Assembly (NCBI GenBank): GCA_946186205.1
Contig: CAMHMH010000001.1
Span: forward strand, 372,001-436,000
DNA from: an uncultured Fretibacterium sp.
GTDB lineage: Bacteria > Synergistota > Synergistia > Synergistales > Aminobacteriaceae
DNA: 64,000 bases
Direction: 5' to 3'
Below the pieces are notes generated by a model. That model saw nothing but the letters and a program-made list of their open reading frames with translations, was not told the DNA's origin and ran no database searches. Below, piece after piece: positions 10,345 to 37,747 of the stretch. Numbering within the stretch: the first letter of the stretch is position 1; each line of letters starts with the position of its first letter. The translations under genes and the position numbers were made by a program.

Positions 10345-11472
10345 TCATAGTATTGACCTGTACGGGTGCGGCCTATGATAGTGCGATATGGTGTGTACAG
10401 CAACAAGCACTATGCTTCGGTAATAATATAAAAGGACGTATGCGACAAGGAGAGCAAGGACTATGAGCTTCAGATGTTTTTCCTTAACAAACTTAGGAAG
10501 TGCCGCCAGTGCTATTACGTTTGCCCATTCGATATACAGCATAAGCCTGTTTGCCACAATCCCGACAAAATTTTTATATGCGAAAACAAACAGGATATTG
10601 AACAGGAAAAAGTTTGCTCCTCCGCCGCCTTCAGGTACAAATACTTTTTTTGCATTCCTGCCGTATAAAAAGAACGCAAAAATCTGTACTAATGCAGCCA
10701 ATTTTGAAGATGTATTAGTTTCAGTGAGAGTGTATCCTAACCCAGAAGCAGTTTCAAAGTAATATCTGTATTTGGCGAGACTTGGAATCGAGTATACAAT
10801 TGACATAATTATTGGCCTTGCCATATACATACCTAAAACTACTGCCATGTAGATGATAATTCTGTACTCGCTGTTTTTTACAACCACATCGGAAGCCATG
10901 AGCATATGAACAAATATGAAATACGCAGCAAATAATATCGCTGAATTATGGAACGAGCAGGCGAGCAACCCGTACATAAGGAATCGTAAATATCTCTTTT
11001 CCTCCAAATGATTCAGACCCATGAAGATAACCGCGCACGCCATTGCCTGACGTATGATCATGTAAGTTTGAATATACAGCATGAACGAAAATATAAATAT
11101 AATCATCGGACATGATATTTTCTTCCTGTGCCTGTACGCCCCTACGTAGACACCCGTAACCGTAACAAGCTGATACATGAACAGCGAGAAATTAGGATGA
11201 TCAGAAATTCTGCTTGAAAGGTAGCACAAAGATTGATACCCTAATTCAGAAAAGATGGTAGCATTCCGTTTTATCAGATAATCCAAGAAATTCGAGTAGC
11301 GCAGAGCCTCATTAAAACTAGGGTAGGCATATACATGCACATCTACAGCAAGATCGGGATGCCTCAGCCCGCCGAGTATGCTCAAAATCAGAATGCTTAT
11401 CGCTGAACACAGAATTATTACGCCCTTGTTTTTTGAGCGTGAAGCAAGGTAAGCAAAAAATGTTGATGACAA
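10345..11472 (-). CDS. EpsG-family polysaccharide polymerase-like membrane protein, start disrupted by (TA)8
   Basis: The clean frame starts at a TTG (11472) with no ribosome site and half of the first membrane helix missing. About ten hydrophobic segments follow. The family signs are 'LGGLRHPDLAVDVHVY' near the start, 'MIIRQAMACAVIFMGL..LEEKRY' and 'ACSFHNSAILFA', all typical of EpsG/Wzy-like proteins that polymerise exopolysaccharide units at the membrane. Upstream on the minus strand are AGGAG (11513-11517) and, 9 bases later, TTG at 11501-11503. That TTG reads through the (TA)8 tract but is out of frame with the rest. One extra TA (or two fewer) would join it in frame, giving an N-terminus 'SDIYIYIYCFLSSTFFAYLASRSKNKG', a normal EpsG first helix. 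The gene is thus probably phase variable and OFF in this copy. It diverges from hisS. Confidence 0.8.
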   Translation of the reverse strand: MSSTFFAYLASRSKNKGVIILCSAISILILSILGGLRHPDLAVDVHVYAYPSFNEALRYSNFLDYLIKRNATIFSELGYQSLCYLSSRISDHPNFSLFMYQLVTVTGVYVGAYRHRKKISCPMIIFIFSFMLYIQTYMIIRQAMACAVIFMGLNHLEEKRYLRFLMYGLLACSFHNSAILFAAYFIFVHMLMASDVVVKNSEYRIIIYMAVVLGMYMARPIIMSIVYSIPSLAKYRYYFETASGLGYTLTETNTSSKLAALVQIFAFFLYGRNAKKVFVPEGGGGANFFLFNILFVFAYKNFVGIVANRLMLYIEWANVIALAALPKFVKEKHLKLIVLALLVAYVLLYYYRSIVLVAVHTISHYHRPHPYRSIL

Positions 11473-13170: not shown

Positions 13171-14074
13171 TCACTTGTACGAGTCTATTACGTGCTGAAG
13201 AATTGACGAAGGAGTCAGCCTTTCAGAGTCAAATTTATATGACATCTTGTGAAGGTCGCTTAACCCGGCAAAATATTTCATTTTCTCATCGGAATAATCA
13301 TCATATGCTGCCTTGCCCATTTCAATCCACGGGGCATTATCAACATACGGGACTCTGCTCCATTCTTCCGGGTATTTCTTTGCCGCCATCTTGAAGAACA
13401 TGTGAAACAAAAAATAATGTATCAGGTAATTATGACTCTTCCAGTACTCGAACAATAAATCCCTTGTAAGTGTGATTATCGGGTTGTGAGCTTCTGAGAC
13501 AATGAACCAGCTTGATGCGACCATGTAGAAAGGATACAGGTTTGACGTGTTTGACGCGAACAATGGAAGCTGCATAAATTCCGTGAACTTACGCCCGGTA
13601 CAGAAGACAGTAGAGTCTATCCATGTCCCGCCGTGCTGTATGAGAAGCTCTGCTCTGATTATGTCGCTAAAATGAGTGTGAGAGATGATGCCTCTGTTGT
13701 GCTTGTCGATGATGTAACCTGGAAGGCTGATATAGTCTGAGATGTTGTACTGATCGAGCGTGATGATCTTCTTGTCGGGACACCAGAAGTGCAATGACCT
13801 AAGGCAGGCTTTGCATACTGGCGGAGCATTGTCCTCACCCTGAAGCCACAAACGCCAGATTATATCTTTACCCCCCCCCCCCCCCTTGCTGAGTAATTTT
13901 ACTGAGCTTGTACTCGGATATGAACGGGCGGTATTTTCTGCTGAGGTATAAATACATTAGGTTGCTCGCAGTTTCCCATGGAAGAATGTTATACAATATC
14001 CTCAAAGGTATTTCATTGTATCTTCCCTCAGAAAGAAGCTCATGAATTTTTCTGATTTTGCTTGTTATGCTCAT
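13171..14074 (-). CDS. Capsular polysaccharide-type glycosyltransferase, interrupted by a 15-G tract (phase OFF)
   Basis: Two frames make one gene. From ATG 14074 (AAGGAGGC upstream) 68 residues are read, ending in five Gly codons and TAA at 13868-13870. The remaining ~227 residues continue in another frame ('KDIIWRLWLQGEDNAPP'). The break is exactly at a run of 15 G (coding sense). With 14 or 17 G the frames fuse into a 300-residue protein aligned end to end with its 297-residue paralog at 14139-15032. Family features: 'IIWRLWLQGED', 'FSDIIRAELLIQHGGTWIDSTV' (Caps_synth/Gly_transf_sug type, GG.W.D motif), so it probably transfers a sugar to a surface glycan. Its 3' end is almost identical to that of the paralog. 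Confidence 0.85.
13871..13885. repeat. Homopolymeric tract, 15 C on + (15 G in coding sense)
   Basis: Fifteen consecutive C inside a glycosyltransferase gene. The paralog has unrelated, non-repetitive codons at this point. Tract length 3n+2 keeps the frame open; 15 closes it. Confidence 0.95.
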
Positions 14075-14103
14075 AATTTACGCCTCCTTGATAAAAAGTA
14101 TAA

Positions 14104-14138: not shown

Positions 14139-15032
14139 TCACTTGCACGAGTCTATTACGTGCTGAAGAATTGACGAAGGAGTCAGCCTTTCAGAGTCAA
14201 ATTTATATGTCAGCTTGTGAAAATCGCTTATCCCCTCAAAATATTTCATTCTCTCTTCCGAATAGTCATAATACATGAAGTGCTGCATTTCGTGAGGAGG
14301 ACCGTTTGAGACATACGGGACTTTCTGCCATTCATCCGGGTATGCTTCAGCCGACATCTTGAAGAACATGTGAAACAAAAAGTAATGTGTAGGATAATCA
14401 TACTTCTTCCAGTAGTCAAAAAGCAAATCCCTTGTTAGAGTGATTACCGGGTTATTTGCATCTGAGACTATGAACCAGTTTGAAGCAATGCACGTAAAAC
14501 TTTTCATCTGAAACACGAATAACGGAAGTCGCGTAACATCTTCAAAATTCCTCCCTGTGCAGTAAACAGTAGAGTCGATCCATATGCCTCCGTATTTTGT
14601 GAGAAGCTCAGCCCTTATTATGTCGCTGAAATGCGCGTGAGGAATTATGCCCTGCTCATGTTTCCTGATGATGTATTCAGGAAGCGCAATGTAATCTGAA
14701 ATATTATTTATGTCGAGAGTGACAATTTTCTTTTCGGGATGCCAGAGCCGTAATGACTTCAAACATGCTTTGCAGAGTTCCGGCTCATTATCTTCACCCT
14801 GAAGCCACAAACGCCAGATTATATTTTCATGCCCTGCTCCCGATGAAGGCAAGTTTTCCGAAACATGCGTGGATATGAACGGGCTGTATTTCCTGTGAAG
14901 GTGTGAATAGATTGCATTCTCTATGATTTTGACCGAAGTAACTTTGAAGAATACTCTGCGTAAAATTTCTTTGTATTGTCCTTCTGAAAGAAGCCTGCGG
15001 AACTTCCTGATTTTTTGCGCGGGGCTTTTCAT
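14139..15032 (-). CDS. Capsular polysaccharide-type glycosyltransferase (intact paralog)
   Basis: 297 residues, no repeat tract. The N-terminal ~65 residues are basic and amphipathic ('KIRKFRRLLSEGQYKEILRR'). Then comes the catalytic region with 'NIIWRLWLQGEDNEPE', 'SDIIRAELLTKYGGIWIDST' and 'YCTGRNFEDV', as in Caps_synth (PF05704-like) transferases with a DxD-like 'WIDST' motif. Predicted to add a sugar residue to capsule or other surface polysaccharide, at the cytoplasmic face of the membrane. It lies upstream of the interrupted copy on the same strand, and the last ~70 coding bases of the two copies are nearly identical. Probably cotranscribed with speE upstream or separated by the hairpin at 15055-15085. 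Confidence 0.82.
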   Translation of the reverse strand: MKSPAQKIRKFRRLLSEGQYKEILRRVFFKVTSVKIIENAIYSHLHRKYSPFISTHVSENLPSSGAGHENIIWRLWLQGEDNEPELCKACLKSLRLWHPEKKIVTLDINNISDYIALPEYIIRKHEQGIIPHAHFSDIIRAELLTKYGGIWIDSTVYCTGRNFEDVTRLPLFVFQMKSFTCIASNWFIVSDANNPVITLTRDLLFDYWKKYDYPTHYFLFHMFFKMSAEAYPDEWQKVPYVSNGPPHEMQHFMYYDYSEERMKYFEGISDFHKLTYKFDSERLTPSSILQHVIDSCK

Positions 15033-24879: not shown

Positions 24880-24917
24880 GGGAGACTCCCAAAAAGGAAT
24901 CTCCCAATTTTTTTTTT
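24880..24917 (+). terminator. Rho-independent terminator
   Basis: GGGAGA (24880-24885) pairs with TCTCCC (24900-24905), followed by AA and ten T. Ends the cheV-rpoD-channel-small gene unit. Confidence 0.85.
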
Positions 24918-37708: not shown

Positions 37709-37747
37709 CAGGCGGTCTTGCTTAATCGCGGGGCCGTTTTTTTTTTT
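37709..37747 (+). terminator. Rho-independent terminator
   Basis: CGGTC (37713-37717) pairs with GGCCG (37732-37736), then eleven T. Confidence 0.75.

Follow-up and report, generated by a model that had tools for sequence, protein, structure and literature searches.

Poly-G tracts in a glycosyltransferase gene and across a genus of Synergistota, most of them with a shared upstream element

Described homopolymer switches and their closest parallels

Phase variation through slippage at homopolymers is regarded as a passive process, for which any long run suffices. To our knowledge, the tracts of Campylobacter and Helicobacter have no common upstream element. The phase-variable promoters of Neisseria (porA, fetA and opc type) use homopolymers as spacers. 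In Campylobacter and Helicobacter, the poly-G/C contingency loci constitute a phasome (PMC6321876, PMC2823697). The genus considered here, that of an uncultured Fretibacterium sp., resembles these organisms in having many tracts of about 10 or more G in or before genes for surface glycans, surface proteins and restriction-modification, where switching would act through reading frame or promoter spacing; unlike them, it belongs to a different phylum. Another likeness is found in the Neisseria promoters, since here too a C tract can occupy the spacer between the -35 (TTGACA) and -10 (TATAAT) boxes, although in this genus the -10 box is fused with a tract-associated element. The G4 motif of Neisseria gonorrhoeae pilE with its cis sRNA promoter (PMC3547852) offers a third parallel, in that a G-rich tract and a cis element lie at a set distance. 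However, pilE undergoes gene conversion at one locus via the G4 motif, whereas the tracts described below consist of G alone and occupy dozens of loci, with no donor copies implied. These runs are mostly 10-13 G long and without separated GGG runs, and no -35-like box was seen upstream of them. The open-access papers searched yielded nothing joining Synergistota with phase variation, or Synergistaceae with a poly-G tract, in keeping with the first-pass annotation of this DNA, which knew of no such system in the phylum.

The glycosyltransferase gene and its G15 tract

The window, meaning the whole 64-kb stretch of DNA that was analysed, contains a single G or C run of at least 7, a G15 tract within a glycosyltransferase gene (Table 1). 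The next longest such run is 6, and the number of runs like G15 expected by chance in the window is about 5e-5 (an estimate assuming independent bases at the window's composition). Two T runs, T10 and T11, also occur in the window, at 24908-24917 and 37737-37747. A contingency locus is marked by a tract whose length sets the reading frame of an otherwise intact gene, and this holds here: on translation, the product is 70 residues with G13, 300 with G14, 68 with G15, 71 with G16, 301 with G17 and 69 with G18. As assembled, the N-terminal frame ends in GGGGG followed by a stop. OFF alleles should be null because the tract precedes the catalytic domain.

Table 1. Features of the glycosyltransferase locus, in window positions.
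Feature	Position	Strand	Basis
Glycosyltransferase gene (Caps_synth, PF05704), inferred to be phase-variable, OFF as assembled	13171..14074	-	G14/G17 300/301 aa vs G15 68 aa; Pfam
G15 tract (C15 on + strand), after codon 63, 5' of catalytic domain	13871..13885	-	Sequence
Truncated product with 15 G, 68 aa	13868..14074	-	ORF listing
Downstream open frame with catalytic domain, 226 aa, from TTG	13171..13851	-	ORF listing; Pfam
Ribosome-binding site AAGGAGG, 8 nt before ATG	14083..14089	-	Sequence
Tract-associated element TCAGTAAAATTACTCA (consensus TACGTAAWWTWACYNA)	13890..13905	-	12.8 bits, model without own species
Intact tandem paralogue, 297 aa, without tract	14139..15032	-	ORF listing; Pfam; alignment

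The adjoining paralogue provides a measure of what the restored gene would encode. Its product aligns end to end with the 300-residue protein, with 184 identities in 302 alignment columns (61%), and both genes match the Caps_synth profile in Pfam, the paralogue at 1.4e-73 and the C-terminal piece of the interrupted gene at 1.5e-65 over profile positions 53-277 of 278. There is no sign that a tract cassette was inserted into the gene, since linkers are of almost the same length whether or not a tract is present. An initial scan of genome_contigs gave no match to the paralogue. The surroundings include an EpsG-like gene (10345-11472) and genes of type II secretion or type IV pilus systems. Much of this had been proposed in the first-pass annotation, which placed the gene correctly, described it as broken at 15 G and in frame with 14 or 17, and matched the fused 300 residues to the neighbour over their full length; translation and alignment bear these statements out. 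Its 68-residue N-terminal frame with a ribosome site was likewise confirmed. The two frames do meet at the 15 G as it held, but the C-terminal one is listed with 226 residues, not the 227 it had given.

Poly-G tracts across the genus and their upstream element

The source genome (2.75 Mb, 19 contigs) has 24 runs of at least 9 G, comprising 23 of at least 10 G and one G9, together with one G8 run. Six genomes of the genus show 1-7 G8 runs each versus 23-58 runs of at least 10 G. Tract number ranges from 0 to 58 among congeners, and other families of the order mostly have 0-6 per genome. The complete genome of congener G020 is free of tracts and several other congeners have few; therefore, the genus can do without the system. 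Contigs of these relatives were deposited as Synergistaceae, Synergistales or uncultured Fretibacterium MAGs, many of them from ruminants. Sampling was limited to one genome per species, to MAG assemblies without reads, and to tracts fetched by position and not from every genome.

Homologues of the glycosyltransferase gene from six congeners allow the tract to be compared at the same site, where it is in frame with G11, G9 and G11 and out of frame with G10, G14 and G8. One homologue copy has its tract interrupted as GGGGTGGGGG and is frame-shifted, another has an assembly gap exactly at the tract site, and two copies are without a tract. In the homologue on contig C24 of G025, the tract has been lost and the frame is broken there, leaving a motif-like CAGTATAATTAC, as in a locked-off copy. 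More broadly, when homologous tract sites were paired across species (and not strains), 50 of the 62 pairs proved unequal in length and 45 of the 62 unequal in frame. The tracts sampled from seven species number 206 and run from 9 to 23 in length. Coding sequence on the G strand accounts for 131, for which 0, 1 or 2 extra G are needed in 47, 39 and 45 cases, respectively; in 18 a TTGACA-like box lies directly past the tract, in most cases paired with TATAAT on the opposite side; 11 lie in genes on the C strand; and 46 are other or short.

The genes with tracts, as judged by Pfam, encode capsule and other glycosyltransferases, GT2, GT92, LicD, FkbM methyltransferase, CotH, a beta-helix surface protein, HsdS and TPP enzymes, a concentration in surface-structure or modification genes that rests on Pfam tallies without a formal background test. 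On contig C3 of the source genome, an HsdS gene for type I restriction specificity bears G19 on its non-coding strand, flanked on either side by element-like sequence, and may constitute a phasevarion. What the first-pass annotation treated as a single locus is part of a genus-wide set, in which most tracts have a shared upstream element that it did not notice. Its interpretation of the gene as subject to slipped-strand phase variation remains the best reading, given the same-site lengths of G8-G14 in congeners, the 23 tracts in the genome and the differing lengths in 50 of 62 pairs, with within-clone switching being inferred.

The upstream element has a 16-bp consensus drawn from 147 clear sites, with frequencies at its key positions of 0.97 (G), 0.92 (A), 0.84 (T) and 0.73 (A). 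In the window's copy the conserved G is position 13902, with the tract beginning 17 nt further downstream, and the score of this copy is matched or exceeded by 0.07% of the window's AT-rich 30-mers. TACGTA-like six-mers are enriched about 25-39 times directly 5' of tracts. An unsupervised motif search in seven species separately recovered one and the same upstream pattern each time, most weakly in G031, and no consistent pattern downstream of the tracts. When each species was scored with models from the other six, p values against AT-rich background ranged from 3e-4 to 8e-18, and 40-76% of held-out upstream flanks exceeded the 95th percentile of that background versus 0-6% at 80-110 nt upstream; these p values may be somewhat inflated by orthologous tracts common to species. 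About a third of the sampled tracts have no recognisable element.

This element is a DNA motif and not a protein motif. It is found in unrelated gene families, in two reading frames and at non-coding tracts. The GTAA core of coding tracts starts at codon position 1 in 20 and at position 2 in 28, with none at position 3 (0/14), where it would give an in-frame TAA, and 34 non-coding tracts also have GTAA. A protein-level motif is ruled out by the two codon phases together with the occurrence in non-coding DNA. Each species has its own spacing between the conserved G and the tract, equal for coding and non-coding tracts: the source genome, G032 and G010 have 16-17 nt, and G017, G022 and G027 have 13-14 nt. 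The core is nearly palindromic (GTAAWWTTAC), from which a dimeric binder is inferred.

Its taxonomic range was surveyed in 183 genomes of the order with a pattern of GTAA followed by G10 within 8-14 nt. The genus gave 99 matches versus 7 in a reversed-pattern control (the forward column against the control's reverse column, read as counting each tract once), with a match in 34 of its 43 genomes; beyond the genus, isolated matches occur in 8 of 58 genera. Within the order, the element is concentrated in the source genus, and at 12 outgroup loci read in detail the upstream flank was absent or matched only at chance level. A phage origin was rejected, as viral_contigs gave only 3 chance-like matches. 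Spread across phyla was also rejected, since the many Planctomycetaceae MAG matches among those listed from genome_contigs proved to be copies of a single repeated family whose flank differs and whose score is near background. The MAG in question, Ct408_bin98, has 97 tracts of at least 10 G, and most of those read belong to one repeated family ending ...CGTAAA.CA-G12-CTATATGGAGTGGAGAGTTGAGAAC. Chloroflexi/Anaerolineae MAGs present, at five loci, a common site, GCATTACGTAATATGCAGCAAC followed by G10-G13 of varying length, which is likely a phase-variable orthologue. Helicobacter saguini has 102 tracts of at least 10 G; in the ten that were read the element is absent (median score 0.8, one of ten above 5), and the flanks are mostly AC-Gn-TA(A) or AC-Gn-TAAT, which suggests that tract flanks are constrained there too.

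Mechanism, alternatives and meaning

There is good reason for confidence that the gene is a contingency glycosyltransferase gene within a genus-wide set of poly-G switches in which the element serves as a cis site. This explanation is built on the anatomy of the gene, its frames, the number and position of tracts, the way their lengths differ between species, and the element with its geometry, all of which are observed. The best-supported part is phase variation of the gene, for which sequence comparison gives good evidence; within-clone switching, the slippage mechanism and an effect on glycans are inferred. Slippage would lengthen or shorten the G tract by one base or a few, so that about one length in three would put the N-terminal leader and the catalytic domain in a single frame (ON), the others ending at about 70 residues (OFF). 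The intact adjoining paralogue may give a constant background activity, to which the variable copy would add a sugar, or whose sugar it would alter, in part of the population. Similar switches are proposed across the genus, most in coding frames and some in -35/-10 promoter spacers, and most of their tracts have the 16-bp TACGTAAWWTWACYNA 12-18 nt upstream. The presence of the same element upstream of most tracts suggests that something recognises these sites. A factor that binds the element in cis may act at the tract and set its mutability or length, which is inferred and not shown, and no trans-acting factor has been identified.

Tracts with the element average 11.5 in length (sd 1.5, n=140) compared with 12.9 (sd 2.8, n=66) for those without it (p=0.001), and runs of at least 16 G number 1 of 140 and 11 of 66, respectively. 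That the element limits or sets tract length is a hint, not a demonstration, because some of the long tracts lie at contig ends and may be artefacts. A more specific proposal is that a dedicated factor peculiar to the genus, for instance a protein that binds or nicks DNA, recognises the element and creates, maintains or limits the tracts at a fixed distance from it. The near-palindromic core, the fixed species-specific spacing, the sharp lower limit at about 10 G and the tighter lengths point in this direction, yet the proposal is tentative and probably not correct as it stands. Two other sources of tracts were considered. Loss of mismatch repair does not explain them, as MutS_I is present in the source genome and in all 36 congeners searched (two as fragments only). 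Nor is a reverse transcriptase required to write the tracts: G017 is rich in tracts but has no RVT_1, G027 has only a weak match to it, and the presence of reverse transcriptases does not follow tract number. The source genome has an RVT_1 domain at G000:C1:295133-295732 (6e-17).

Homopolymer calls from short reads are unreliable, so the true length could be 14, or the gene could be dead with 15 fixed. Moreover, several tracts in the assemblies of the genus, including 2 of the 24 in the source genome versus 0.02 expected, are no more than 60 bp from contig ends, and poly-G read artefacts are possible there. The G15 run, however, sits inside an 829-kb contig, its site is kept in other species with differing lengths in independent assemblies, and the catalytic frame is intact across 226 codons. 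The tract is real even if 15 was miscounted, and an artefact or fixed pseudogene is judged unlikely. Programmed transcriptional slippage or ribosomal frameshifting could instead yield a full-length protein from any tract length, and it is established that long homopolymers can promote slippage of RNA polymerase (see also PMC3711429). Such a fixed recoding signal would hold one frame relation, which is not what is seen: the shift needed is spread over 0, 1 and 2 (47/39/45) with tract lengths of 9 to 23, and the same element and spacing recur at non-coding and promoter tracts. Recoding is, as a result, barely credible.

The remaining alternatives concern the element itself. It could be part of a promoter whose transcript, starting next to or in the tract, exposes the G tract in the manner of the G4-linked sRNA of pilE, which requires such a transcript (PMC3547852). 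The reverse complement found at promoter-class tracts, GTATAATTAC, includes a -10 box, but no -35 box is seen on the G strand, where per-position content 20-28 nt upstream is low and scores 80-110 nt upstream are at background. The element of coding tracts is also rarely TATAAT, and its most conserved bases, GTA, differ from those of the -10 box, leaving a promoter role doubtful though still worth entertaining. The motif might otherwise reflect ancestry and not function, with tracts and flanks having spread together by duplication or gene conversion. While some tracts do lie in paralogous or orthologous genes, common descent of the flanks is very unlikely to be the answer: the element occurs in unrelated families, in non-coding DNA and in two codon phases, similarity does not extend past about 16 bp, the element is retained while flanks diverge, and its spacing shifts species by species as a whole.

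The occurrence of one element at a set distance from tracts in any gene or frame suggests that the position or stability of the tracts is under the control of a recognisable site. If a dedicated factor does exist, the tracts would represent an encoded, site-directed mutation system as opposed to passive slippage at chance repeats. The set described here adds a large phase-variable repertoire to a phylum for which the open-access papers searched gave none. In these bacteria of ruminant and other guts, phages and host immunity would favour switching of the cell surface.
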